A stretch of DNA of 64,000 nt from Terriglobales bacterium (GTDB taxonomy: Bacteria; Acidobacteriota; Terriglobia; Terriglobales; Acidobacteriaceae), in assembly GCA_035573675.1 (NCBI GenBank), contig DATMAB010000015.1, positions 310,001 to 374,000 on the forward strand. Reading direction: 5' to 3'. Each line of letters begins with the position of its first letter. Positions within the stretch are counted from its first letter, which is position 1. Under the pieces are notes generated by a model. The model was not told where the DNA came from. It saw only the letters and a program-made list of their open reading frames with translations, and made no database searches. This document shows, piece by piece, positions 5,871 through 20,846 of the stretch. A program made the translations under genes and the position numbers.

Positions 5871-6713
5871 TCAGCCGGGCCAGATGGCGAGTGAGGTCTG
5901 GCTGAGAATCTGCTCCTTGACAGCCTCCGGGAGCGACAAGGCACGGAAGTCGGTGAGATTTTTCTTCATGTCCGGGACGCCCGGGCCGGGCCAGTCTGTG
6001 CCGAACAGCGTCTTGGAAGAGATTTCCTCCAGGCGCGGGAAGTAGCGCAGCAAGGCCTTGGGCGGGATGCCGCTGATATCGAGATAAACGTTCGGGTGCC
6101 GCCGGACCAGGAAGAAGGCCGTTTCCATCCACAGGGGGCGGCCCCCGTGCGCCAAAAGGACCTTCAGTTTGGGGAAGTCGACCGCGACATCGTCCACGTA
6201 AATAGGGTCGCCGTACTTGTTGCGGGCGCCGGGGAAGATGGAAGTTCCGGTATGGACCATGACCGGGATGCCGTTGGCCTCGGCGGCGCGATAGATGATC
6301 TCCAGCTCCTTGACGCCCTTCAGGTAATCGTTCGGATAGAGGAGCTGGTGTGGGGGGTGGATCTTGAACATGCGGATGCCGAGCCGCAGGAGTTCTTCAA
6401 CATCCCGCAGGACGTTGGCGCTGTGGCGCGGATGCAACCCGCCGCAGGGAATGAGCCGCCGCGGGTCTTCTTTTACATACTGGGCGACGAAATGGTGGAC
6501 CTCCGAGGTGAGCCCGATGACTTCCGGCGCTACGTAATTGATGAGGACGGCGCGCTCCACGCCCACTGCGTCCAGATGCTCGAGGAAGGCCTTGGGCGAG
6601 CGGCAGAGGGCTTCAATGTGCTCGAAGTCGCTGCGTTTCCTCTTCATGGCAGCCATGGCCTCCGGCTTGAAGAGGTGCATGGGCATGATGTGGACGTGGC
6701 AGTCAGTGATCAA
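5871..6713 (-). CDS. Amidohydrolase family 2 protein (ACMSD-like TIM barrel)
   Basis: A 280-residue metal-dependent hydrolase or decarboxylase of the amidohydrolase-2 family. Ligand motifs are visible in order: DCHVH at residues 4-8, the HTG histidine in mid-protein, LLAHGG, and the FGTDWPG aspartate near the C-terminus. The family includes aminocarboxymuconate-semialdehyde decarboxylase and gamma-resorcylate decarboxylase, both acting on aromatic-derived acids. It is the last gene of the minus-strand array that includes the aromatic-CoA cluster, so a role there is possible but unproven. Length is normal. Confidence 0.85.
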   Translation of the reverse strand: MITDCHVHIMPMHLFKPEAMAAMKRKRSDFEHIEALCRSPKAFLEHLDAVGVERAVLINYVAPEVIGLTSEVHHFVAQYVKEDPRRLIPCGGLHPRHSANVLRDVEELLRLGIRMFKIHPPHQLLYPNDYLKGVKELEIIYRAAEANGIPVMVHTGTSIFPGARNKYGDPIYVDDVAVDFPKLKVLLAHGGRPLWMETAFFLVRRHPNVYLDISGIPPKALLRYFPRLEEISSKTLFGTDWPGPGVPDMKKNLTDFRALSLPEAVKEQILSQTSLAIWPG

Positions 6714-7493: not shown

Positions 7494-8477
7494 CTAACCC
7501 CGGGCGGCGGCCAGGACAGCACGCTTGGCGAATACCCGGATCATCTCGCGGCGATACTCCGGCGTCAGCGCCGAGGTGGTGAGCGGCTTGGCAATCCGGG
7601 CCGCCAGCTCGCCGACCACTTCGGCCACGTGCTCATCCACCTTTTTCCCGGCCAGGGCATCGCCGGCTTGCGGCACCAGCAACGGCGCTGGATTGACGGC
7701 GGTGATGGCCACGCGCGCGTCCTCGACCGTGCCGTTCGACTTCTTGAGCGCCACCGCGACGCCCGCCAGCGGGTAGTCGATAGAACCGCGAATACGCAGC
7801 TTCATGTAGGCGCCTCGCCAGCCCGCCATAGTCTCCGGCAGGAACACGCGGGTGAGCAGCTCGTCCCGCTCGCATTGGATGCGCGCATCGCCCAGGTTGG
7901 TGTAGAAATCTCGCAGTGGTAAGCGGCGGGTGCCGCGCGGGCTCGCTAGCTCGATCTCTGCACTCAAACAAAGCAGTGCGGGAGGCGTATCGCCCGAGAA
8001 CGCCGCCCAGCACTTGGCGCCGCCGGGCGCCACGTGGCAGAGGTCGCCATCCTTCTTGATGCAGAAACCGCAAGACTTGCGCCAGGCGAGCGACTGGTTG
8101 TACCAGAGGCAGCGCGTGTCCAGGCAGATGTTCCCGCCGATGGTCCCCATGTTGCGCAGGATGGGCGAAGCCACGGTAATGGCCGCCTCGCGCAGCACGG
8201 GATAGTTGCGGCGCAGAAATTCGGAGTCTTCGATCGCGGTGAGCGTGGTGAGCGCTCCGATCTCCACGCCCTGGCCGGGAATGACGCGGATGCCGTTGAG
8301 TTCGGCGATGCTGCGAATGTCGAGCACGTACCGCGGGGCGAACAGGCGCTGGCGCAGCGAGGGGATGAGGTCGGTGCCGCCAGCAATGATCTGGACGTCG
8401 GGAGCGTGCGTGCCGAGCAGGTCGACCGCCTCAGTCATGGTGCGAGGGCGCAGCAGCTTGAATTCAGGGAGGCTCAT
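7494..8477 (-). CDS. hcrB: 4-hydroxybenzoyl-CoA reductase-like FAD/[4Fe-4S] subunit (beta)
   Basis: A 327-residue FAD-binding subunit of a xanthine-dehydrogenase-family enzyme (CO-dehydrogenase medium-subunit fold). FAD motifs are IAGGTDL near residue 32 and NMGTIGGNIC near 110. Ordinary family members lack what follows: a cysteine-bearing insert of about 40 residues with C123, C139, C147 and C156. The spacing equals the four ligands of the extra [4Fe-4S] cluster reported for Thauera aromatica HcrB (C122, C138, C146, C155). That insert marks 4-hydroxybenzoyl-CoA reductases, which reductively remove the para-hydroxyl with low-potential electrons. The start overlaps the upstream gene's stop by 4 bases. 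The substrate is inferred. Confidence 0.85.
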   Translation of the reverse strand: MSLPEFKLLRPRTMTEAVDLLGTHAPDVQIIAGGTDLIPSLRQRLFAPRYVLDIRSIAELNGIRVIPGQGVEIGALTTLTAIEDSEFLRRNYPVLREAAITVASPILRNMGTIGGNICLDTRCLWYNQSLAWRKSCGFCIKKDGDLCHVAPGGAKCWAAFSGDTPPALLCLSAEIELASPRGTRRLPLRDFYTNLGDARIQCERDELLTRVFLPETMAGWRGAYMKLRIRGSIDYPLAGVAVALKKSNGTVEDARVAITAVNPAPLLVPQAGDALAGKKVDEHVAEVVGELAARIAKPLTTSALTPEYRREMIRVFAKRAVLAAARG

Positions 8478-8953
8478 GCGTGCATGCCCTTCGCCAATGG
8501 CATGGACCGATAGATTGCGACTCGTCCTGTCATAGTAGGAGCACTAATGAACAAACGAAGCCCCAAGTGGCCACTGAGCTTCTTCCACTTCCCGTCTTCG
8601 AGGTACTCGCAGGCAAGGCTCCACCACACTAGCCCCTTTTTCTGAACTATCTGGGTTTCGTGACAGATCAACCGCTTCAATGCATCCAGGTACGCCTCCG
8701 CTAGCTCCTCGGCATCACCACGGAATTGAGCCATCTCGAACGGATACCACCAGAAGTATTCCCCGGGCCTGCCGCCTGTCCTATCCGCTCCGATCTGCCG
8801 CTCCCCACCTGGTTCCTCATGAACCGAGAACGCATAATCGGCTCCTGAAGCGCGTGGCAGGTACACTGTCTCCCAGCCGTGTGGCCCAGTGACCACCTCC
8901 GGCTCGAAACCAGGCAGGTACGCCTTCAGTAGCGCGATAGTTGAGGGACCCAT
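8474..8953 (-). CDS. Hypothetical protein inserted between hcrA and hcrB
   Basis: 159 residues with no domain I recognise. The sequence is rich in aromatic residues (EYFWWYPFEMAQF, GLVWWSLACEYLEDGKWKKL), has no signal peptide or membrane segment, and looks like a compact cytosolic protein. It starts 3 bases after the hcrA stop and overlaps the hcrB start by 4 bases, so it is translated with the reductase subunits. The known Hcr enzyme has only three subunits. This is either an accessory factor or an unrelated insertion. Confidence 0.7.
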   Translation of the reverse strand: MGPSTIALLKAYLPGFEPEVVTGPHGWETVYLPRASGADYAFSVHEEPGGERQIGADRTGGRPGEYFWWYPFEMAQFRGDAEELAEAYLDALKRLICHETQIVQKKGLVWWSLACEYLEDGKWKKLSGHLGLRLFISAPTMTGRVAIYRSMPLAKGMHA

Positions 8954-8956
8954 TGT

Positions 8957-11527
8957 CTACTCGCCCGTCGACTCGTTTGTTGTCTGCAAGCGTCGTGCCG
9001 GATCGTCCGGGTGGCGCTCCGGGCCCTTGCCGCGATACCACAATGCGCCACCGTGCTCGCGGAACCTGGTTGGAGCTGCGGGGTCGACGCCTTCCGTCAG
9101 GTCGAGTTTCTTTGCGCCCTTTTGGGCGCGCAGCCCCGCCAGCACCCGCTCGGGCGTGAACGGCGCTTCATGCAGGCGAATGCCCACGGCGTCGTAGATG
9201 GCGTTGGCGATGGCGGGAATGGTCGCGGCCAGAGAGCCCTCGCTGCATTCTTTTGCGCCGAAGGGACCTTCCGGGTCCACGCTCTCCACGATGATGCATT
9301 CGACCTCCGGCGACTCCACTGCCGAGGGTGAGCGGTATTCGAGCAGGCCGGGATTCATCAGCAGGCCGTCTTTCCAGACCATTTCTTCCTGGAGCGCCTG
9401 GCCCAGTCCCATCCAGACGGACCCAATGACCTGGCCCTCGACGGAGACGGGGTTGAGGGCGCGTCCGCAATCGTGCGCGGCCCAGATCTTGTGCACGGTT
9501 ACGACGCCGGTTTCTTCATCGACGCTGACCTCGGCCACCTGCGCGGCATAGGAGTAGGCCGGCGACGGCCCCACGCCCGCGCCTTTGTGCTTGCCGCCGC
9601 GCGCTTCCTGCGGCGGCGCATAGGAACCGGTTCCGGTGAGAGCGCCGTGGAAGTCGATGGCTGCAACCACCGCTTCCTCGAAAGTCATCCAGTCCTTGGG
9701 GCCTTCTTCCTTGCGTTTCTGCTGCAGGGAGCCGCGCAGGATCTGGCCTTCTTCCACGCGGCCGGCCGCCTGCTCGCGGGCGATGCGAGCCTCGGTTTGC
9801 GCCGCGCTTTCCGCCATGCCTTTCTTGAAAACCAGGTCGTTGCGCATCACGACGTCTTCGGGGGCGCAGTTCATCTTGCGCGCGGCGGCAGCGACGATCT
9901 GCTTTTTCACCTCGTCGGCGGCGCGCATGGTGGCGTTGCCGGCCATGAAAGTAACGCGGCTGGAGTACGAGCCGATGTCGATGGGCGTAAGGTCAGTGTC
10001 GGCGGCGACGATCTTGATGCGCGAGAGCGAGCAGCCCAGGACTTCGGCGGCAATCTGCGCGGTCATGGTGTCCGACCCCTGGCCAATTTCGGACGCCCCG
10101 GTGTAGACCACAACGCCGCCGTCGCGGTCCACCTTGATGTTCACGGTGGAGTGTGGCATGTCCGAACGGATGATGGAGTTGGCCGCGCCGCTGACGTAGT
10201 GGCTGCAACCCAGGCCCAGGCCGCGCCCGCGGCCGAGCCTGCCCCGGCGCTCCCGCCAGGCCGAGCGCTCTACCACCTTCTCGATGCATTCCGGCAGGCC
10301 GTAGCTCTGCACGCGCAGCCCGTTGACCGTGATGCAAGGCGGCCGCAGCAGGTTGACGCGGCGGATCTCGGCCGGGTCCAGCTTGAGCGCCGCGGCAATC
10401 TCATCCAGTTGCGACTCGAAAGCGAAGCGCACGTTCACGGTGCCGTGGCCGCGCATGGCCCCGCAGGCGGGTTTGTTGGTGAGCACGCGATAGCCGTCAT
10501 AGCGGATGTTGGGGATGTCGTAGAGCGCGCCCAGCAACGCGCCCGAATAGAGGATGGTCACCACGCCATACGAGCAGTAGGCACCGCCATCCTGAATCAC
10601 TTTGGCAGCGACGGCGGTGATGCGGCCGTCGCGCTTCACGCCGGTCTTCAGATCGATGATGGTGCGCGGACGACCGCGGTGCGCCCAGAACACTTCCTCG
10701 CGGGTGTAGGTGATCTTGACCGGCGCGCGGGCTGCGCGCGCCGCTACCGCCGCGATGATCTCCAGCGGGATGACTTCGCTCTTGCCGCCGAAGCCGCCGC
10801 CTACCAGCGGCTTGATGACGCGGATCTGCGCCATCGGCATCTCCAGCACGATGGAAAGCTTGTGCTGCAGGTAGTACGGCACCTGGGTCGAAGACCACAC
10901 CGTCAAGCGCCCGGGCTTGCCGGTGTGCGGGTCGAAGTCGAACGAGGCCAGGGTGGAGTGCGGCTCCATGGCCGCGTGCGTCACCTCGTTGGCGATGAAG
11001 CGAGCCTCGGCGATGTGATCGGCTTCCGCAAAGCCTTTTTCCGGATCGCCAAAGACGTGGTGGTAATCCTTCTCGATGTTGTGCGGCTTGTGATCGTGGA
11101 TGAGGTCGGCTTCGGCCTTCATGGATTCTTCCGGATCGAAATACGCGGGCAGGACTTCGTACTCGACTTCGATCAGCTCCAGCGCCTGTTCCGCCACCGC
11201 CTCACTGACAGCGACGACGCAGGCCACGTTGTCCCCGATGTAACGGACCTTGTCCACGGCCAGCGCGGTTTCGTCGTGGCCGACGGGCAGGATGCCGTAC
11301 TTGTTGGGCGCATCCTGGCCGGTCACCACCGCGACGACGCCTTCCAGCGCCAGGGCCTTCGAGGCATGGATGCGCTTGATGCGGGCGTGGGGATGCGGCG
11401 AGTGCAGGATCTTGCCGATCAGCATGCCGGGCAGCGACAGGTCGTCCGTGTACTTGCCCGAGCCGGTGGTTTTTTCCGCTGCGTCCACGAACGCGACGGA
11501 TTTGCCGATGATGGAGAAATCGCTCAT
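8957..11527 (-). CDS. hcrA: 4-hydroxybenzoyl-CoA reductase-like molybdenum subunit (alpha)
   Basis: An 856-residue molybdopterin-binding large subunit of the xanthine oxidase family. An aldehyde-oxidase a/b-hammerhead domain occupies about residues 20-130. The Mo-binding domains follow, with GGGFGGK, ACGAMRGHG and GASEIGQGS motifs. GPFGAKECSEGS near residue 770 contains the glutamate that is catalytic in the family. It is longer than typical HcrA because of a charged segment near residues 600-660 (around QLQQKRKEEGP-like sequence) and a polar C-terminal tail. Together with hcrB and hcrC on the same strand it makes a full Mo/FAD/FeS enzyme. The closest functional assignment rests on the HcrB insert. 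Confidence 0.85.
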   Translation of the reverse strand: MSDFSIIGKSVAFVDAAEKTTGSGKYTDDLSLPGMLIGKILHSPHPHARIKRIHASKALALEGVVAVVTGQDAPNKYGILPVGHDETALAVDKVRYIGDNVACVVAVSEAVAEQALELIEVEYEVLPAYFDPEESMKAEADLIHDHKPHNIEKDYHHVFGDPEKGFAEADHIAEARFIANEVTHAAMEPHSTLASFDFDPHTGKPGRLTVWSSTQVPYYLQHKLSIVLEMPMAQIRVIKPLVGGGFGGKSEVIPLEIIAAVAARAARAPVKITYTREEVFWAHRGRPRTIIDLKTGVKRDGRITAVAAKVIQDGGAYCSYGVVTILYSGALLGALYDIPNIRYDGYRVLTNKPACGAMRGHGTVNVRFAFESQLDEIAAALKLDPAEIRRVNLLRPPCITVNGLRVQSYGLPECIEKVVERSAWRERRGRLGRGRGLGLGCSHYVSGAANSIIRSDMPHSTVNIKVDRDGGVVVYTGASEIGQGSDTMTAQIAAEVLGCSLSRIKIVAADTDLTPIDIGSYSSRVTFMAGNATMRAADEVKKQIVAAAARKMNCAPEDVVMRNDLVFKKGMAESAAQTEARIAREQAAGRVEEGQILRGSLQQKRKEEGPKDWMTFEEAVVAAIDFHGALTGTGSYAPPQEARGGKHKGAGVGPSPAYSYAAQVAEVSVDEETGVVTVHKIWAAHDCGRALNPVSVEGQVIGSVWMGLGQALQEEMVWKDGLLMNPGLLEYRSPSAVESPEVECIIVESVDPEGPFGAKECSEGSLAATIPAIANAIYDAVGIRLHEAPFTPERVLAGLRAQKGAKKLDLTEGVDPAAPTRFREHGGALWYRGKGPERHPDDPARRLQTTNESTGE

Positions 11528-11747: not shown

Positions 11748-12077
11748 TCATGCTCCGCTCTTCCGGGGATCCATGTCGACTCCCGCCTCTTCGGGATCGC
11801 GCACCATGGCGATGTTGGCGTCGATCGCCCGCATGCGTATGGGAATGATCTCTTGGTACTCCGGGGAGTCGTACCATCTCTGTGCCGCCGCAAAATCGGG
11901 ATAGGCAACAATCACCGTGCGCACAAACGGCCACTCGCCCGAGCGCACGACAGGCGCCCTGTCCACGGCGACATAACGGCCGCCGTGCCGCTCAATGAGC
12001 GGTCGCACGCGGCCGGCATATTCACGGAACGCCTCGAGGTCCTTAATCTTCTTGATGGTGACCACCACGTAGGTCAT
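11748..12077 (-). CDS. DUF1330-like small protein
   Basis: 109 residues with a ferredoxin-like alpha/beta-barrel pattern (MTYVVVTIKKIKDLEAFREY, WPFVRTVIVAYPDFAAAQRWY, SPEYQEIIPIR), typical of the DUF1330/dimeric barrel group. The ATG at 12077 overlaps the hcrC stop by 4 bases, which decides the start; a longer upstream frame would overlap hcrC heavily. Proteins of this fold are sometimes small isomerases or monooxygenases. Function here is unknown. Confidence 0.8.
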   Translation of the reverse strand: MTYVVVTIKKIKDLEAFREYAGRVRPLIERHGGRYVAVDRAPVVRSGEWPFVRTVIVAYPDFAAAQRWYDSPEYQEIIPIRMRAIDANIAMVRDPEEAGVDMDPRKSGA

Positions 12078-12577
12078 GGGTTCACCGCCGATTCTCTCCC
12101 CTTCTGCTCCGCCTCCACTGCCGCCTTCACCGCCTGGTACATCTGCGTGTAGCCGGTACAGCGGCAGAGGTTGCCGCTGAGGGCGTTGCGGATTTCGTCG
12201 TCGGTGGGCTCCGGGTTGGCCGCCAGCAGCGCCTTCACGGTCATCAGGAAGCCCGGAGTGCAGTAGCCGCACTGCGCGCCGCCCCAGTCACCGTAGGCCT
12301 TCTGGATGGCGGCCAGCGCGCCGTGCTCGGCCACGCCCTCGATGGTCGTCACCTCCTGGTCGTCACCGGCGCAACTGCCGGCGAGCATGGTGCAGGAAAG
12401 CACCGGCACGCCGTTCAGCAGCACGGTGCAGGCGCCGCAGGAAGAGTCGTCGCAGCCGCGCTTGGAGCCGGTAAGCTTCAGGTCTTCGCGCAGGACGTCG
12501 AGCAGGAGCTTCGAGGGCTCGACCGCCAGTTCGTGGCGACGCCCGTTCACGCGCAGTTCGATGAGTTCCTTCTTCAA
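12074..12577 (-). CDS. hcrC: 4-hydroxybenzoyl-CoA reductase-like [2Fe-2S] subunit (gamma)
   Basis: A 167-residue iron-sulfur subunit. A plant-type ferredoxin domain has the cluster cysteines GCDDSSCGAC and, further on, LSC. It is followed by the all-helical second-cluster domain with CGYCTPG and NLCRCTGY. This two-cluster layout is that of xanthine dehydrogenase small subunits, CoxS and HcrC. It passes electrons between the FAD subunit and the molybdenum site. The chosen start is a TTG (12575-12577), which lies at the edge of a TTCTCAG microrepeat. No ATG is available nearby upstream. Confidence 0.92.
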   Translation of the reverse strand: MKKELIELRVNGRRHELAVEPSKLLLDVLREDLKLTGSKRGCDDSSCGACTVLLNGVPVLSCTMLAGSCAGDDQEVTTIEGVAEHGALAAIQKAYGDWGGAQCGYCTPGFLMTVKALLAANPEPTDDEIRNALSGNLCRCTGYTQMYQAVKAAVEAEQKGRESAVNP

Positions 12578-12608: not shown

Positions 12609-13013
12609 TCAATAGAGCGGCACTTTGGGGTCGATGGTACGCGACCACTGGTCGATGCCGCCGCGCATGGACTGCACCTTCTCGAATCCCTGCTGCCGCA
12701 ACCAGGCGCATACGTTGGCGGAGCGGATGCCGTGATGGCATACGACCACGATGTGCTCCTCCGGGTCCAGTTCCCGGTGGGCCCGCGCGGGCACGTCCGA
12801 CATGGGGATGAGCGTCGAGCCGGCGATGCTCGCCGTCTGCACTTCCCAGGGCTCACGCACGTCGAGCAGCGTGAACCGTGACCCGTTTTCGGCCAGGGCC
12901 TTCACTTGTTCGGGTGTGATCTCGAAGTCCGTTTTCGTTCCCTTGTCATCCCGAGCGCCTGCGACCGAGCCTTGCGAGGAAGCAGGCAGCCGAGGGATCC
13001 CTACTCCCGCCAT
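12609..13013 (-). CDS. Single-domain rhodanese-like sulfurtransferase
   Basis: About 110 conserved residues of a rhodanese domain: LLDVREPWEVQTASIAGS, then HIVVVCHHGIRS, where the cysteine of the CHHGIR loop is the persulfide-forming residue. The C-terminal MRGGIDQWSRTIDP is also typical. Such proteins move sulfane sulfur and could support maturation of the molybdenum enzyme, whose cofactor often needs a sulfido ligand; that is inference. The start is uncertain. The domain begins near 12925, and the only in-frame ATG that avoids overlapping gctA is at 13013, inside a dispersed repeat. Confidence 0.8.
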   Translation of the reverse strand: MAGVGIPRLPASSQGSVAGARDDKGTKTDFEITPEQVKALAENGSRFTLLDVREPWEVQTASIAGSTLIPMSDVPARAHRELDPEEHIVVVCHHGIRSANVCAWLRQQGFEKVQSMRGGIDQWSRTIDPKVPLY

Positions 13014-13060: not shown

Positions 13061-13966
13061 TTAATATCCAAAATCCACTTGTGCCGCGTAGGCATGCTTC
13101 TCCACCGCCAGCTCCTGCTGGCGACACGCGCCGATGCGGTTCATGTACTCGCCTCGATCCGCAACGCTTAGCACCCAGCGCTCCAGCCACGCCGCAAAGT
13201 CTGCCGGAGTCTTGGTCTGCTCGTGGTACTGCTGGAAAGCTGCGTCGTCCCGCTTGTAGCAGCCCTGCACCGGCGAAGGATGCGCCCCGTAGGGGCACTC
13301 GACCACGGCGCTGACCAGGAAGCCGGGGATCACGGTGCGGTTGGGATCGCTCGAAATCACTTCCGGCTCGACGATCTTCTCCGCTACCACGATGACGCGC
13401 CGTGCCGCCCTTACTCCTTCCAGCATCACGCCGAAGTTGCCCCAGCAGTGGGCGTTGCCCTCTGCGTCGGCGCGCTGCACGTGGACGATGGCGACATCCG
13501 GGACGATAGCGCGAACCGCGTGTAGCTTTTCTCCCGTGAAGGGCGAGTTGAACTCCGTGAAGAATTCGTTGTCACGGGCGACGTCCGAGCCCAGAGCGGT
13601 ACGCGCGGGCAGGAACGGAACTCCCATGGCGGCCGCCTGGAGAGCCAGCGCGACACCGAAATTGGTCATATCTGTGACCTTGACGCTGCCCGACTCGACG
13701 GCGCGGCGGAAGTTGTAGGCCGAACCCATCATCACGTTGCCCACCCAGGCAGCGATGACGCGCTCCACGCAACCGGCGCCGATGAGCTGGTCGAACAGCA
13801 CATCCGAAATCGGCCCGATAAGCGTCAGCCCGCGCTTCTTCTGGCGGATGATCTCGTGGCCAGCGGCAAAAGGAATCATCTGCTCCAACTGCAGGCCAAA
13901 AGCGATGTGGGTTCCATCACTGATGTGCTCGGCTATCGCCTCGCGCATCGTCATCAGCTTGGACAT
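13061..13966 (-). CDS. gctA: CoA-transferase subunit A (glutaconate CoA-transferase type)
   Basis: A 301-residue class I CoA-transferase alpha subunit (MSKLMTMREAIAEHISDGTHIAFG, then GCVERVIAAWVGN, NFRRAVESGSVKVTDMTNFG, PDVAIVHVQRADAEGNAHCWG). It should pair with the beta subunit encoded at 15356-16144. The pair would move CoA between a carboxylic acid and an acyl-CoA donor. Alternatively it could be a ring-cleaving hydrolase like IpdAB, but the partner keeps the transferase glutamate. The ribosome-binding site GAGGG lies about 9 bases upstream, inside a dispersed repeat. A broken copy of its own N-terminus sits immediately upstream. Confidence 0.88.
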   Translation of the reverse strand: MSKLMTMREAIAEHISDGTHIAFGLQLEQMIPFAAGHEIIRQKKRGLTLIGPISDVLFDQLIGAGCVERVIAAWVGNVMMGSAYNFRRAVESGSVKVTDMTNFGVALALQAAAMGVPFLPARTALGSDVARDNEFFTEFNSPFTGEKLHAVRAIVPDVAIVHVQRADAEGNAHCWGNFGVMLEGVRAARRVIVVAEKIVEPEVISSDPNRTVIPGFLVSAVVECPYGAHPSPVQGCYKRDDAAFQQYHEQTKTPADFAAWLERWVLSVADRGEYMNRIGACRQQELAVEKHAYAAQVDFGY

Positions 13967-14558: not shown

Positions 14559-15350
14559 CTATTTCCCTTTCCACACCGGCTTGCGCTTCTCCAAAAACGC
14601 CTGGATGCCCTCAACGGCATCCTCGGTCTTCATCAGTTCCTCGAAGTAGACCTGCTCGGCCTTGGCCAGACCTTTGTCGAAGTGGATGGCGTCCCAGGCG
14701 TAGAAAGCCTTCTTGGTCACGGCCAGCGCGGCCGGGCTCAACTGCTCCAGGTGATGGACGGCCTGCTGGACCATCGCCTCGAGGTCGTCTTCGGCAGTGA
14801 CGCCGTTGGCCAGCCCGATGGCCGCGGCCTCCGGCCCTTTGAGCGAACGGCCGGTCAGCACCAGTTCCGCCGCCCGTTTCTGGCCGATGAGCGCCGAAAG
14901 GGCCACAGCGGCCACCGGCGGGAAGCAGGCCAGCTTGATCTCCGGGAACTGCCAGGTGGCGCCGTCCGCGGTGTAGACCAGGTCGCAGACCATGGCCAGC
15001 TCGGCGCCGCCTCCCAGGCACAGGCCGCGCACGGCGGCGACGGTGACCTTGCGGCTGGCCACGATGGCGCGGATGGCGGCGTGGAAGCGGGTCAGCATGT
15101 CACGCACGTTTTCCGGGGTGTGCGCGGCGACATCCACGCCGGCGGAGAAGGCCTTCTCCGAACCTGCAAAGACGATTACGCTGATGTCGGCGCGCTGCTC
15201 GATCTCTGCCAGCGCCTCTTTCAACTCATCCATCATGGGGATGTCGATGACGTTGAGCGGCGGATTACTGAGCTTGATGCGCGCCACGGGCGGCGCCAGC
15301 TCGAGGCAAATCTTCGTGTGGGTCATGCGGGTCAGTGGGGTTGCGGCCAT
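14559..15350 (-). CDS. Crotonase resembling cyclohexa-1,5-dienecarbonyl-CoA hydratase (Dch)
   Basis: A 263-residue enoyl-CoA hydratase/isomerase protein. Both crotonase glutamates are present: GGGAELAMVCD and FPEIKLACFPP. From my memory of the Thauera Dch sequence, the GRSLKGPEAAAIGL stretch and the C-terminal EELMKTEDAVEGIQAFLEKR match it better than they match fatty-acid hydratases. Dch adds water to the diene made by benzoyl-CoA reductase in anaerobic degradation. Here the nearby oxygenase is BoxB-like, so the true substrate may be a ring-derived or epoxide-derived CoA ester. GAGG lies 8 bases before the ATG, overlapping the gctB stop region. Confidence 0.75.
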   Translation of the reverse strand: MAATPLTRMTHTKICLELAPPVARIKLSNPPLNVIDIPMMDELKEALAEIEQRADISVIVFAGSEKAFSAGVDVAAHTPENVRDMLTRFHAAIRAIVASRKVTVAAVRGLCLGGGAELAMVCDLVYTADGATWQFPEIKLACFPPVAAVALSALIGQKRAAELVLTGRSLKGPEAAAIGLANGVTAEDDLEAMVQQAVHHLEQLSPAALAVTKKAFYAWDAIHFDKGLAKAEQVYFEELMKTEDAVEGIQAFLEKRKPVWKGK

Positions 15351-15355
15351 GTCAG

Positions 15356-16144
15356 TTACCTCGTCCAGAATCCCTTCTTATCGTACTCGCGAATCGCCTT
15401 GAGCTCGGCGGCCGAGGGCTCCGGGGTGACGGATATGCGCTCGGCGACACGCAGGTTCCACCCAGTGTTCGCCCGCACGTCCTCCACGGTGACGCCGGGA
15501 TGCGCGGAGTCAAGGAAGGCCTCACCGTCCTCGCCGAAGCGCAGCACAGCTTTGCTGGTGATGACGGCGCTGGGACCTCCGCGTGGCAGGCCGGCGCGCT
15601 CGCGCCACCCGCGGCCGTCTCCGTAGCCTGGGCTGGTCACATAGCTGACGCGCTCCGGCAGCCGCCGTTTGTCGTGTTCCAGCAGGACGACGAAGCGCTG
15701 CGCCAGCGAAGCGATGTCGCACGCTCCGCCCGAACCCGGCAGCCGCACGAAGCCGTTCTTGTTCTCGACCCGGGTGGAGTTCAGGTTGCCGAAGCGGTCC
15801 ACCTCGGCTGCGCCCAGGAAGCCCAGGTCGACGCGTCCCGATTGCAGCAGGCTCATCACGCTCAGCATATCCAGGCACTGGGTTGCGCCCAGCAGATTGG
15901 GCGGGTCGGCCATGGTGTAGATAAGCTCCTGGGCCGGGGTGGAGCGCACTACGCCATTCTCAAACAGGCCGATGGCGCTGGGAGCGTGCGTCTTCTTGGC
16001 CACCACGAAGGCGATGAGCGGCAGGCGCATGCCGACGAAGACGATCTCGCCGTCGCGGATCTCGCGCGCTGCCGCGGCCACCATCAGCTCACCCAGCGTG
16101 TAGCCGGAGCGGGCGGAGACGTCGGGAATGGAAGTCGTGGTCAC
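15356..16144 (-). CDS. gctB: CoA-transferase subunit B (glutaconate CoA-transferase type)
   Basis: 262 residues from a GTG start (16142-16144). The longer upstream frame would overlap boxB and has no homology. Features shared with Acidaminococcus GctB are VGMRLPLIAFVVAKKTHAP, FENGVVRSTP, LGAAEVDRFGNLNST, GSGGACDIASLA and YVTSPGYGDG. The glutamate in FENG lines up with the catalytic Glu54 of GctB that forms the glutamyl-CoA intermediate. The non-transferase IpdAB hydrolases lack this residue. Transferase activity is therefore likely, with GctA (13061-13966) as partner. The two subunits are unusually separated by three genes or remnants. Confidence 0.87.
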   Translation of the reverse strand: MTTTSIPDVSARSGYTLGELMVAAAAREIRDGEIVFVGMRLPLIAFVVAKKTHAPSAIGLFENGVVRSTPAQELIYTMADPPNLLGATQCLDMLSVMSLLQSGRVDLGFLGAAEVDRFGNLNSTRVENKNGFVRLPGSGGACDIASLAQRFVVLLEHDKRRLPERVSYVTSPGYGDGRGWRERAGLPRGGPSAVITSKAVLRFGEDGEAFLDSAHPGVTVEDVRANTGWNLRVAERISVTPEPSAAELKAIREYDKKGFWTR

Positions 16145-16221: not shown

Positions 16222-17394
16222 TTACTGAATCGCGGCCTTGCGCACTTCCCCGATGGTCGCCAGCGGGTCGCGGCCGCCCTCTTTGGGCGCAATCCAGCCC
16301 TTCTCCGAACCGATGATCTCCAGCAGCAGCTTCTTGTCCGCTGCCGTGGGCAGCCATTCGGGAAGCTGCTGTTCGTAGGCCTTCTCTTCCACCGGCTCGC
16401 CGGTCTGCGGGTGGAACCTCTGGTTGGCCCAGCGCCCGATGGTGCGGTTGAACCTGATGTGCGGCGCGTAGAGCCTCGGCTGTCCCGGCTTCAGACTGTT
16501 GTTGAAACGCGCCACCAGGCCGGCAACCTCGTCGCGGTAGAGCTGGCGGTTGTAGTCGTTCAGGTCGTCCAGTTGCGGCTCCAGTTTGTTGGCGGGTTCG
16601 TCATAGCGTCCCTTGATGCCCCACACGTACGCCCAGTGCGCGGACGACGAGTTGTCCGTGCCGAACAGATCGTAGGACTCCGATATCCACTTGTTCAGAT
16701 ACTTCTGAATCAACCAGCCCGGCACGACCCCGGCTTCCACCACGCGGCGGATCCCGTCGTTGCCGGTGCCCATGTGGAAAGCCTCCTCGCGCAGCATGTA
16801 GGACATGGAACGTCCCAGCGGAGCGAAGCCGGAATACTTCAGCATCTGGAGCTGAAACTTGCCGTCGCGGTCCACGAAGTCGGTGTAGGTGAAAAAGTCC
16901 ATCCAGTTGTCCACGTTCTCATTGAAGGCGTTGAGCAGGCGCTTGTTCTCGAAGGCGCGGCGCTCCAGCATCTTCTGCGCTTCCACCTTGCCGGTTTGGC
17001 CGAAGTGCTCGATCAGGAGGGCGCACATCTGCCACCCGTGGCGCATTTCTTCGATCATCACCCGGGTGAGCGCCTTGCGATCGTAGTCGCTGGGCGCGGT
17101 CTCGAACAGGAAGCGCTGCTGCTCGACGCTGGCGAACTCGGTGTCGCCCTGGTAGACGATCATGTTCAGCAGGGCGTCGCGCATGTTCTGCGTGGGCATC
17201 TGGCGCACGTTCTCCCATTTCGGCCGCCCCTTGTAGTGGCCGAACTGGATCTCGTTGGTCTCGATGGCCCCGTACAGGGTCTCGAACTTGAACTCGGCGA
17301 TCTCCTTGGGGTTGACGCCGATCTCCTTGCGCCACTCCTCGAACAGGCCCGCCCAATCGCTGAAGGTTCCGATCTTGAAGACTCTTCCCGGCAT
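16222..17394 (-). CDS. BoxB-like di-iron oxygenase (benzoyl-CoA 2,3-epoxidase family)
   Basis: 390 residues. The di-iron ligands expected for BoxB/PaaA-type epoxidases are all present in order: E86 in QGDTE, E116 and H119 in EEMRH, an aspartate in DRDGK (175/177), and E204 and H207 in EEAFH. Other BoxB-like stretches are SVEQQRF, IQKYLNKW, DLFGT and the late EWLPTAADK and GWIAP. BoxB is about 470 residues; this protein lacks roughly the first 30-40 and some loop residues, so it may be a separate subfamily. BoxB epoxidises benzoyl-CoA using a BoxA reductase. No BoxA or BoxC is in the window. AGAGGA precedes the ATG. Confidence 0.82.
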   Translation of the reverse strand: MPGRVFKIGTFSDWAGLFEEWRKEIGVNPKEIAEFKFETLYGAIETNEIQFGHYKGRPKWENVRQMPTQNMRDALLNMIVYQGDTEFASVEQQRFLFETAPSDYDRKALTRVMIEEMRHGWQMCALLIEHFGQTGKVEAQKMLERRAFENKRLLNAFNENVDNWMDFFTYTDFVDRDGKFQLQMLKYSGFAPLGRSMSYMLREEAFHMGTGNDGIRRVVEAGVVPGWLIQKYLNKWISESYDLFGTDNSSSAHWAYVWGIKGRYDEPANKLEPQLDDLNDYNRQLYRDEVAGLVARFNNSLKPGQPRLYAPHIRFNRTIGRWANQRFHPQTGEPVEEKAYEQQLPEWLPTAADKKLLLEIIGSEKGWIAPKEGGRDPLATIGEVRKAAIQ

Positions 17395-17496: not shown

Positions 17497-18969
17497 TTAC
17501 AGATTCACCCACACGCTCTTGAGCTCCGTGTAGTGCTCGATGGCGTGCATGCCCAGCTCGCGGCCGAATCCGGACTGCTTGTAACCGCCGAACGGAAGCG
17601 CCACGTCGTACAGGTTGTAGGCATTCACCCATACCGTGCCCGCCTTCAGCCGGCGCGCCACGGTGTGCGCCTTCTTGATATCGTTGGTCCAGACCGCTGC
17701 CGCCAGACCGTAGATGTTCTGGTTGGCCATGGCAGCGACTTCTTCGGGATCTTCGAAGCTGATGGTGGCCAGCACCGGACCGAAGATTTCTTCCTGGGCG
17801 ATGGTCATCTTGTTATCCACGGCATCGAAGATCGTGGGCTCGATGAAGTAGCCCTGGCCGCCGTCCACGGACGCGCGGCTGCCGCCGGCCACCAGGCTGG
17901 CGCCTTCCTGCTTGCCCTTTTCGATGTAGCCCAGCACAGTCTTCATCTGCTGTTCGCTGACGATGGCGCCCAGGCGGGTCTTGGGATCGAGCGGGTCCCC
18001 GGGCTTGAGCTTTTTGGTGCGGTCCACCAGCTTCTCCATGAACTGGTCGTGGACCTTCTTCTCCACGAACAGGCGGGAACCCGCGGCGCAGACTTCGCCT
18101 TTGCCGTAGAAGATGCCGTTGGCGGCGCCGCGAATGGCGGCTTCCATGTCGGCATCGGCGAAGACGATGTTCGGCGACTTGCCGCCCAGTTCGAGCGTCA
18201 GACGCTTCACGGTGTCGGCCGCGCTGCGCATCACTTCCTTGCCCACCACGGTCGAGCCGGTGAACGCGACCTTGTCCACGCCGGCATGCTTCACCAGGGC
18301 CATGCCGACTACCGAGCCCTGTCCCGGCAGGATGTTCACCACACCCGCGGGCACACCGGCCTCCAGCATCAGTTTCCCGATGCGCAGCGCGGAAAGCGTC
18401 GTCTGCGTGGCCGGCTTCCAGATGACGGTATTGCCAGTCGCCAGCGCCGGAGCGATCTTCCAGGCTGCCAGCAGCAGGGGGAAGTTCCACGGCACGATGG
18501 CCGCCACCACGCCCACTGGCTCGCGCAGGGTGTAGGTAAAAGCGTTGGCGCGCGAGTTGATGGTCTCGCCGTGGATCTTCGTAGCCCAGCCGGCGTAGTA
18601 GCGGAAGACCTCAGCCACGGTGGGCACATCCACGTAGCGGGATTCGAAAATGGGCTTGCCGTTATCGAGGGTTTCGATCTCGGCGATCTCGTCGATGTCC
18701 CGCTCGATGAGGTCGGCGATACGCCACAGCACCTTGCCGCGCTCGCTAGCCGTCATCTTCTGCCACGGGCCGTTCGCGTCGTCGAAGGCCTTGCGCGCCG
18801 CCGCGACCGCCGCGTCCACGTCCTGCACTGTCCCTTGGGAGATGTGCGTGAGCACTTCGCCCGTGGCGGGGTTCACGGTCTCGAACGTCTTGCCGTCGGA
18901 AGAGTCCCGCCACTCGCCGCCGATGAGCAGCTTGCCGGGCTCGAGCTTCGCTTTGGTGGCTGCAATCAT
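17497..18969 (-). CDS. NAD(P)-dependent aldehyde dehydrogenase
   Basis: A 490-residue ALDH superfamily enzyme. Motifs are the cofactor-binding VPWNFPLLLAAWK, FTGSTVVGK, the general-base glutamate in LELGGKSP, the catalytic cysteine in GEVCAAGSR, and QEEIFGPV. The closest general type is the betaine/phenylacetaldehyde dehydrogenase group. In the box pathway a semialdehyde dehydrogenase (BoxD) follows ring cleavage, so this protein may oxidise a ring-cleavage semialdehyde. That rests only on position next to the BoxB-like gene. Length and catalytic residues are normal. Confidence 0.92.
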   Translation of the reverse strand: MIAATKAKLEPGKLLIGGEWRDSSDGKTFETVNPATGEVLTHISQGTVQDVDAAVAAARKAFDDANGPWQKMTASERGKVLWRIADLIERDIDEIAEIETLDNGKPIFESRYVDVPTVAEVFRYYAGWATKIHGETINSRANAFTYTLREPVGVVAAIVPWNFPLLLAAWKIAPALATGNTVIWKPATQTTLSALRIGKLMLEAGVPAGVVNILPGQGSVVGMALVKHAGVDKVAFTGSTVVGKEVMRSAADTVKRLTLELGGKSPNIVFADADMEAAIRGAANGIFYGKGEVCAAGSRLFVEKKVHDQFMEKLVDRTKKLKPGDPLDPKTRLGAIVSEQQMKTVLGYIEKGKQEGASLVAGGSRASVDGGQGYFIEPTIFDAVDNKMTIAQEEIFGPVLATISFEDPEEVAAMANQNIYGLAAAVWTNDIKKAHTVARRLKAGTVWVNAYNLYDVALPFGGYKQSGFGRELGMHAIEHYTELKSVWVNL

Positions 18970-19340: not shown

Positions 19341-20150
19341 CTACCTTGCCTTGAACTCCGCCGGACGCTTCTCCACGTAGGCGTTCAGGCCTTCCTTGGC
19401 GTCCTGGCTCTTGAACAGCAGCGATTGCAGCTCGCGCTCGACGGCCAGCGCCGACTCCAGCGGAATCTCCCAGCCGGTCTGCACCGAGCGCTTGATGTGG
19501 CCCACCGCCATGGCCGCCTTGTTGGGCGGGCAGAACTGGCGGGCGTATTCCATCACGCTCTCCATGAAGTTTTCGCGCTCGAAGATGTCGTTCACCAGGC
19601 CCAACTCCTTGGCCTCCTCGAAGGAGAAGGTGTTGCCGGTCACCATCAGCTCGATGGCCTTGGACTTGCCGACGATGCGCGACAGCCGCTGCGTTCCGCC
19701 GGTGCCAGGCAGCACGCCCAGGTTGATCTCCGGCAGGCCGATCTTGCCGGCATCGCGCCGCGCAATGCGCAGGTCCGCAGCCATGGCGATCTCCAGGCCG
19801 CCGCCCACGGTGTGCCCGTTCAGCGCGGCGATCACCAGCTTGGGCGTGTGCTCCAGGCGCAGCAGCGTCTCATTGGCATGCAGGCAGAAGTAATACTTGA
19901 AAACAGGATCCACGCTGGCCAGCATCTTGATGTTGGCGCCCGCGGAGAAGAACTTGTCTCCCGCGCCGGTCAGGACGATGACGTGGACGTCGTTCGCCAT
20001 ACGCGCCTTGAGGATGGCTTCGTCGAGCTGGCGGTTCATCTCGTAGGTGTAGGTGTTGGCCGGGGGATCGTTCATCTCGATCACAGCCACGCCCTGCTCC
20101 ACGCGATAATTGATGAGCGGCTTCGCTGCAGTTTCCGTTGCGGTCACCAT
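19341..20150 (-). CDS. Enoyl-CoA hydratase/isomerase
   Basis: About 269 residues from the ATG at 20148-20150. This start is preferred over one 18 bases upstream because GGAAGGAG lies about 7 bases before it. Crotonase motifs are FFSAGANIKML (oxyanion hole), GGGLEIAMAADLRIA (first catalytic Glu) and LPEINLGVLPGTGGTQRL (second Glu, acyl-CoA pocket). Both acid/base glutamates are kept, so hydratase activity is expected. It is the second structural gene of the array after the TetR regulator. It would serve beta-oxidation-like steps on ring-cleavage products. Confidence 0.88.
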   Translation of the reverse strand: MVTATETAAKPLINYRVEQGVAVIEMNDPPANTYTYEMNRQLDEAILKARMANDVHVIVLTGAGDKFFSAGANIKMLASVDPVFKYYFCLHANETLLRLEHTPKLVIAALNGHTVGGGLEIAMAADLRIARRDAGKIGLPEINLGVLPGTGGTQRLSRIVGKSKAIELMVTGNTFSFEEAKELGLVNDIFERENFMESVMEYARQFCPPNKAAMAVGHIKRSVQTGWEIPLESALAVERELQSLLFKSQDAKEGLNAYVEKRPAEFKAR

Positions 20151-20198
20151 CGAAAAACTCCTTCCCAAGATTCCCTGTATCCAGGGTGGAAATGTCGC

Positions 20199-20846
20199 TC
20201 AGCGCCGGCCGTTGCGCCGGGCGCGACCAGAGCCCAGAATGCCGCGCAAGAATAGATCGCCCATCTGCCGGGCCAGTGCTCCGGCGCCGGCGTCCACGCG
20301 CGGGTTATACCAGGTGTAGATCCAGTTCATCATGCCAAACAGGCTCAGCACCGCGATGCGCGCATTGAATTCTAGCCCCTGGGAGCGCTTCAGGTCTTCC
20401 AGCAGCTCCATCGCCGTGCGGTAGTACTGGCGCTTGATGGCGGCGATCTCGGCTCCGTAGGCGTTCTTCAGCACATCGGCCTCGTGGGAGAGCACCTTCA
20501 TGGCCGCCCCGTTCGCCAGAAAATAGTCGAGGTGGTTCTCCACCAGCACGCGCACCCGCTGCTCCGGATCCTTCACCCCTTCCAGGCGCTCCTGCAAACG
20601 TTCCAGGATGGTGGAGAAGGTGTGCTTCTGGATGAGGTAGAGCAGCTTCTCCTTGCTCTCGAAGTAGTAATAGAGGCCGGCCAGCGACGTGCCCGTGGCG
20701 CGGGAGAGGTCGCGCATGGAAGCGCCTTCATAGCCCTTCTGGCAGAAGACCTCGGTGGCGTGGGCCAGGATTTCGGCAAGACGCCGGTCAAACCGGCGGT
20801 CGGCGAGGACAGCAGATTCGGAGCGATGAGTGGCAGCAGTGGGCAA
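20199..20846 (-). CDS. TetR-family transcriptional regulator
   Basis: 215 residues. The N-terminal helix-turn-helix domain (about residues 18-65) shows ILAHATEVFCQKGYEGASMRDLSR followed by TSLAGLYYYFESKEKLLY. The ligand-binding half is helical and ends in a basic tail. It sits at the head of the minus-strand catabolic array, and a CGAACGTTCG palindrome lies 12 bases before its ATG, as for an autorepressor. Regulators of fatty-acid and phenylacetate catabolism of this class bind acyl-CoA esters. A CoA-ester effector is therefore a reasonable inference. Confidence 0.92.
   Translation of the reverse strand: MPTAATHRSESAVLADRRFDRRLAEILAHATEVFCQKGYEGASMRDLSRATGTSLAGLYYYFESKEKLLYLIQKHTFSTILERLQERLEGVKDPEQRVRVLVENHLDYFLANGAAMKVLSHEADVLKNAYGAEIAAIKRQYYRTAMELLEDLKRSQGLEFNARIAVLSLFGMMNWIYTWYNPRVDAGAGALARQMGDLFLRGILGSGRARRNGRR

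Follow-up and report, generated by a model that had tools for sequence, protein, structure and literature searches.

Of central interest in the stretch of 64,000 nucleotides analysed here (the window) is a short di-iron protein, BOXL, that resembles BoxB, a subunit of benzoyl-CoA 2,3-epoxidase, and the question it raises is whether such a protein does BoxB's job, acts on some other substrate, or is simply a BoxB that has diverged. It is encoded at 16222..17394 on the minus strand, has 390 amino acids counted from an ATG start, and is the single match of its kind in the window's genome (3.16 Mb, 99.1% complete).

Relation of BOXL to BoxB

The alignment bears out the claim of an earlier note on this DNA that all six ligand positions of BoxB are present, as E86, E116, H119, D175, E204 and H207, in a protein of 390 amino acids as against about 470 for BoxB. 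BoxB is also the top hit when the PDB is searched with the BOXL sequence (3per, E 3.8e-56), and the Pfam family PaaA_PaaC is matched at 44 bits (cut-off 28.5). However, the NCBIfam model for BoxB, TIGR03225, gives BOXL only 252.1 bits, about half of its cut-off of 499.1, which is thus not reached; three other short forms score 220-238 bits against the same model, and an acidobacterial BoxB 883.4 bits. PaaA, a subunit of 1,2-phenylacetyl-CoA epoxidase (TIGR02156; 3pvr, 3pw8, 4iit), belongs to the same superfamily and shares the Pfam match, but BOXL scores no more than 40.3 bits where the model requires 280, and no Paa subunits were found among the window neighbours searched. The ring-oxidation-like protein SSO1313 of Sulfolobus (4mud) is likewise short and related (E 1.5e-15), but has 235 amino acids.

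An AlphaFold model of BOXL, made from an alignment of 66 rows that holds close relatives only (65 of the 80 loci described below, plus the window), is weak (pLDDT 64, pTM 0.65), with 142 residues below pLDDT 50, residues 176-210 among them. In Foldseek its first 11 matches are to BoxB chains without exception (E 8e-14 to 5e-13, TMq 0.69-0.71), with the chains of the PaaA complex at TMq 0.45-0.47 and 4mud at 0.40-0.41. The fold and the six ligands are shared with BoxB as known from Azoarcus evansii (3per, 3pm5, 3q1g). A reading of the substrate pocket from the model was dropped on account of the pLDDT of 64 and the low confidence at 176-210.

Relatives of BOXL are encoded on 272 stretches in the species-genome collection; the best 80 of these, from which the cluster counts below are drawn, have relatives at 74-84% identity and come from Acidobacteria, Terriglobia or subgroups thereof. 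Both the length and the ligands are conserved in 65 homologues at 74-84% identity, and with so many sharing them, and 272 stretches encoding relatives, the shortening is not a matter of chance. Set against an acidobacterial BoxB of 471 amino acids, BOXL lacks about 15 residues at the N-terminus, 24 after residue 26, 16 after 220, 23 after 269 and 6 after 361. With gaps at five places, the shortening is dispersed along the protein and leaves the ligand positions untouched; the earlier note was right that the N-terminal part differs, inasmuch as the N-terminal loss is real, but the losses are spread well beyond it.

In a tree of 55 rows BoxB forms one clade (12 rows, including the annotated BoxB of Mycetohabitans, support 100/100) and the window's set of short forms, shortA, forms a clade of its own (16 rows, 100/100). 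A second tree, of 63 rows, took in 10 further BoxB and 10 further short rows, with two PaaA-like rows, L112, L118, L138, L146 and six shortA rows omitted beforehand; here BoxB is again one clade with no short forms in it (20 rows, 100/100, stem 2.5), and the window clusters with the ten new short rows (20 rows, 92/93), all of them from clusters of the same TetR-ECH2-BOXL type as the window's, though the program warned of long branches meeting in this tree. Taken together, the short forms are paraphyletic to BoxB, with the distant set we call group 3 as outgroup (AU p 0.018 for one clade), so that any 'subfamily' is a paraphyletic set beside a long-branched BoxB. The new subfamily put forward in the earlier note stands to the extent that BOXL lies outside the BoxB clade (100/100 in two trees) and falls well short of the equivalog cut-off for BoxB, but not as a single clade of all short forms.

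The gene cluster and its counterpart at BoxB loci

BOXL lies in a cluster with the conserved order TetR, crotonase, short BoxB, crotonase and HcrCAB (4-hydroxybenzoyl-CoA reductase), every member of which is on the minus strand in the window. At its head is a TetR-type regulator (20199..20846), with a homologue in 61 of the 64 loci that have more than 3.5 kb upstream; the BoxB locus L304 is headed instead by a helix-turn-helix/shikimate-kinase protein. The crotonase ECH2 (19341..20168) is the constant partner, found upstream of BOXL and on the same strand in all 64 of those loci (from the best 80 of 272). The gap between the two genes measures 25 to 2384 bases and is wide mostly where an aldehyde dehydrogenase gene intervenes. 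That gene (17497..18969 in the window) is optional, present in 29 of the 50 loci that extend more than 9 kb downstream, and its product is not of the BoxD type, its best NCBIfam models being BADH and StyD, both below cut-off. The second crotonase, ECH1 (14559..15350), occurs in 47 of the 50; its best model is that of cyclic dienoyl-CoA hydratase (Dch), with a score that stays under the cut-off and that other hydratase models practically equal (158.3 bits, as against 157.5 for the general hydratase model).

Also optional are the two glutaconate CoA-transferase-like subunits, B (15356..16144, start approximate) and A (13061..13966), both present in 18 of the 50 loci and both missing from 30. A reading of this pair as an IpdAB-like ring hydrolase was rejected, as 1poi gives the best matches (7.3e-48 and 4.4e-38), far ahead of the 6co6-type entries, which we take to be IpdAB; the optional occurrence of the pair weighs against it too. 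A rhodanese-like protein (12609..13013, start approximate) is encoded in 34 of the 50 loci and an Amidohydro_2 protein (5871..6713) has a homologue in 36. Two small reading frames complete the region: a DUF1330 protein (11748-12083), which overlaps the end of the HcrC gene and has a recognised homologue in only 2 of the 80 related loci, and a protein of 159 amino acids (8474-8953), between HcrB and HcrA, with no Pfam match.

Of the three reductase subunits, the HcrA-like molybdenum subunit (8957..11527) scores above the equivalog cut-off of its model (TIGR03194, 1034.7 bits vs. 994.55), although it is 110 amino acids longer than the model. The HcrC-like iron-sulfur subunit (12074..12577) falls below its own (TIGR03193, 179.4 vs. 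257.8) and scores slightly higher with a glyceraldehyde dehydrogenase model, and the HcrB-like FAD subunit (7494..8477) is also below (TIGR03195, 325.8 vs. 404.55). The latter has four cysteines that align with those of the 4-hydroxybenzoyl-CoA reductase 1rm6, in an insertion that presumably binds the [4Fe-4S] cluster peculiar to this enzyme, which is usually considered an anaerobic one.

Among the 50 shortA loci that extend more than 9 kb beyond BOXL on the downstream side, HcrC is present there in 39, HcrA in 39 and HcrB in 38. In the window's family, all 7 sampled shortA genomes have an HcrB at E<=1e-60, as against 0 of 20 listed relatives that lack BOXL, and five of those seven, the window's included, encode a benzoate-CoA-ligase-like protein at 46-48% identity. 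Across the phylum, with 396 genomes compiled by hand and kinship ignored, an HcrB-like match at that threshold occurs in 34 of 65 BoxB-type genomes as compared with 44 of 331 others. Ten further short loci from the same class all show TetR-ECH2-BOXL, with HcrC-HcrA downstream in six. The reductase is not obligatory, since HcrA is absent from 11 of the 50 shortA loci and from 4 of the 10 other short ones.

The Hcr genes are not confined to the short form. In three of ten BoxB loci from the class (L303-L305, genus g237), HcrC-HcrA lie downstream of BoxC-BoxB and share its strand, and a fourth locus, L300, has weaker HcrC/HcrA-like matches on the opposite strand. In L304 and L305 the canonical BoxC-BoxB pair is followed by Hcr genes plus an amidohydrolase, and L303 has Hcr genes.

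The two forms were not found together in one genome. Among 399 genomes of the class, again compiled by hand, 121 matched at E<=1e-40, namely 69 with a short form (called below 1e-70), 52 with a BoxB-type protein and none with both, although 9.0 would be expected to have both (Fisher p 2.4e-5, kinship ignored); a weaker BoxB could escape this count, as the limit lies near many BoxB scores (about 1e-42 to 1e-45). For 20 short genomes, no BoxB-type match at E<=1e-3 is among the matches listed (for G376, three of four). The non-overlap holds inside genera as well, with short and BoxB-type genomes numbering 4 and 28 in g237, 3 and 2 in g255, 4 and 4 in g262, and 2 and 3 in g265. Two matches each turned up in three genomes; those of G376 and G438 are all short forms, and those of G605 are neighbouring fragments of a single, broken short match, so that G605, like G521, is counted among the 69 on broken or partial matches only. 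One genome of the window's own genus, G621, has no BOXL match at E<=1e-40. That one slot holds either BoxC-BoxB or the short form with its crotonases is the chief reason to think that BOXL may well stand in for BoxB on benzoyl-CoA.

A quite different view would place BOXL outside aromatic catabolism, in some other oxidative or protective role like that of group 3, with the cluster around it coincidental. Nine of 15 loci of a second set of short forms, shortB, do lack an ECH2 or a NuoE/NuoF neighbour (three of the nine lie less than 700 bases from a contig end), and much of the pocket is retained in group 3, but an ECH2 upstream of BOXL in all 64 loci, an HcrA downstream in most, and an HcrB that tracks BOXL so closely through the family make this very improbable.

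Active site and substrate

In the BoxB of Azoarcus the ligands are Glu120, Glu150, His153, Asp211, Glu240 and His243, Gln116 contacts the substrate, and the second shell includes Thr119, Ser123, Phe193, Phe203 or Phe206, and Thr210 (PMC5489048). The equivalents of Gln116, Thr119, Ser123, Phe193 and Phe203 are unchanged in BOXL (Q82, T85, S89, F157 and F167 in the alignment), and the changes are from Phe206 to Y170 and from Thr210 to V174. The earlier note's claim that active-site loops differ holds only weakly, with five of the seven second-shell residues named in that source kept. The trees and the alignment were also checked for a BOXL inside the BoxB clade with its pocket fully conserved, the outcome which that note had set against its own proposal, and they show a protein outside the clade with these two residues altered.

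The six ligands are identical in 16 of 16 shortA, 16 of 16 shortB and 12 of 12 BoxB rows (two of the latter being identical to each other). The equivalents of Gln116, Thr119, Ser123 and Phe193 are invariant in all 16 shortA and 16 shortB rows, and that of Phe203 is Phe in 30 of the 32. By contrast, at the position of Phe206 most short rows (28 of 32) carry Tyr and all 12 BoxB rows Phe, and at that of Thr210 the residue is Val or Ile in all 32 short rows and Thr in all 12 of BoxB. The nine members of group 3 also keep the ligands and the equivalents of Gln116, Thr119, Ser123 and Phe193, and because they do so in a different gene context, conservation of the pocket alone cannot fix the substrate.

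Group 3, which has 29-34% identity to BOXL with the di-iron ligands and Gln116 retained, has a proline-dehydrogenase-like neighbour in six of nine loci (L121, L122, L124-L127) and, in four of those six (L122, L124-L126), a pyrroline-5-carboxylate-reductase-like one as well (Pfam assignment on L122). In two groups, proteins of the LytB/IspH family (Pfam LYTB) adjoin BoxB-like genes (L133:8609-9604 and L120:8440-9303), and a similar partial gene in L146 was recognised by clustering.

The earlier note had suggested that the substrate may differ from that of BoxB. With the pocket of BOXL nearly intact a changed substrate is not supported, and the fact that BoxB and the short form were not found together, while both occur beside Hcr genes, speaks against it further; pocket, non-overlap and shared Hcr context together point to a substrate identical with that of BoxB or very near it. 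One could nevertheless suppose that BOXL takes another aryl-CoA, such as 4-hydroxybenzoyl-CoA or a ring-substituted benzoyl-CoA, with HcrCAB catalysing a parallel or later step. The uniform replacement of Thr210 and the common one of Phe206 would be in keeping with this, as would the persistence of ECH2-BOXL where HcrCAB is absent, and the lack of a BoxC over cut-off together with the different type of aldehyde dehydrogenase would suggest a different product. We consider it rather unlikely, however, given that the substrate-contacting Gln116 and four further second-shell residues are unchanged, that short form and BoxB were not found together, even inside genera, and that canonical BoxC-BoxB, too, occurs beside Hcr genes.

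Partner proteins, electron donor and a proposed route

The absence of BoxA, the usual reductase of BoxB, near BOXL, pointed out in the earlier note, extends to the whole genome of the window, in which a search with the BoxA model (TIGR03224) gave no match at E<=1e-3. None of the 37 acidobacterial genomes searched has a BoxA over cut-off, and these include eight that encode BoxB-type proteins; weaker matches occur in 20 of the 37, the best (146.9 bits, L147, G326:C24:64417-65253) being in a group 3 genome. As BoxB-type genomes likewise fail to pass the cut-off, the absence is non-specific, and it was dropped as a mark of the short form.

BoxC, the partner that opens the ring, does separate the two: all 10 BoxB genomes have a match over cut-off, and none of the 20 short-form genomes does (three of the 20 are less than 80% complete). 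The best match to the BoxC model in the window's genome is ECH2 itself, at 86.7 bits vs. a cut-off of 712.3. ECH2 need not be what replaces BoxC, though, since in L115 a homologue (60%) lies directly downstream of a true BoxC-BoxB pair. BoxD does not distinguish the two kinds of genome: a BoxD-like match is present in 2 of the 20 genomes with a short form, in one case as a fragment, and in only 5 of the 10 with BoxB.

If BOXL were an ordinary divergent BoxB, with non-essential losses, a generic ferredoxin or reductase as donor and an unremarkable later pathway, the likeness in fold, ligands and most pocket residues would follow readily, and the lack of a BoxA over cut-off would be no more than is seen in the eight BoxB-type genomes. 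Such a reading is improbable in view of a score of 252 bits where the cut-off is 499.1 and acidobacterial BoxB reaches 883, of the position of BOXL outside the BoxB clade, and of the failure of all 20 short genomes to yield a BoxC over cut-off. BOXL is BoxB-like yet not BoxB, by model, by clade and by partners.

Among the products of the window's cluster we recognised neither a reductase nor a ferredoxin. In the shortB loci, a thioredoxin-like [2Fe-2S] small protein is encoded in 6 of 15, and five of the six also have a NuoF-like gene near the BOX gene; in the genome of the sixth, G226, a NuoF-like match of similar strength lies on a different contig. Genes of [2Fe-2S] type or NuoF-like were noted near short BoxB-like genes in L145 (6462-8352), L135, L139, L140, L141 and L143, and the Pfam names of the NuoE/NuoF-like pair were checked on L145 and L135. 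Because these genes adjoin the BOX gene, that branch of shortB likely has a dedicated NADH-dependent reductase, of a type for which we know of no description in this di-iron family. The same was considered for the window's genome and rejected, for its two NuoF homologues (38-39% identity) are on contig C18, off the window's contig; there is one NuoE-like match, and the C18 NuoF homologue at 213 kb sits in a different cluster. FNR-like proteins encoded on contigs C10 and C6 are possible donors without positional support. The earlier note's proposal of a differing electron donor is thus plausible by way of the pair beside some relatives, but not on the ground of a missing BoxA, which is not peculiar to the short form (0 of 37 genomes).

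On balance we think that BOXL probably is, if by no great measure, a di-iron aryl-CoA epoxidase that does BoxB's job in a parallel box-type route, and that such short forms have probably done so in many Acidobacteriota of soil. In that route, of which we infer the substrate, the product, the order of steps, the electron donor and the crotonase that replaces BoxC, HcrCAB would reductively dehydroxylate 4-hydroxybenzoyl-CoA to benzoyl-CoA, for which the ligase may be an alternative source. BOXL, reduced by a non-BoxA donor presumably encoded elsewhere in the genome, would activate O2 at its Glu/Asp/His di-iron site and form a ring epoxide of benzoyl-CoA, possibly with an oxepin tautomer, by a mechanism presumed to be that of BoxB. 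The stand-alone crotonase ECH2, with ECH1 where present, may then take over from BoxC in opening or hydrating the ring, and the aldehyde dehydrogenase, where there is one, may oxidise the semialdehyde in place of BoxD.

A more far-reaching version is tentative, and we would hold it with some doubt: that this is a BoxC-independent epoxybenzoyl-CoA route, in which ring opening falls to a short BoxB paralogue together with a dedicated stand-alone crotonase, with reductive dehydroxylation of 4-hydroxybenzoyl-CoA as the supply and with a side branch whose monooxygenase is driven by the NADH-dependent NuoE/NuoF-like pair. A single cluster would then unite reductive with O2-dependent aromatic chemistry. 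A search of open-access titles and the beginnings of abstracts found, among those listed, none on a short acidobacterial BoxB or on an Hcr-box cluster; the texts of PMC4782131 and PMC11291871 contain terms of both kinds.

Should BOXL indeed do BoxB's job, the short forms, present in 69 of the 399 genomes of the class, would be enzymes of the box pathway that the curated models for BoxA, BoxB and BoxC have overlooked, and 4-hydroxybenzoyl-CoA reductase would be tied to an O2-dependent route. They would also be natural replacements of BoxB, occurring in the same genera as true BoxB, with which its electron donor and the opening of the ring could be probed.
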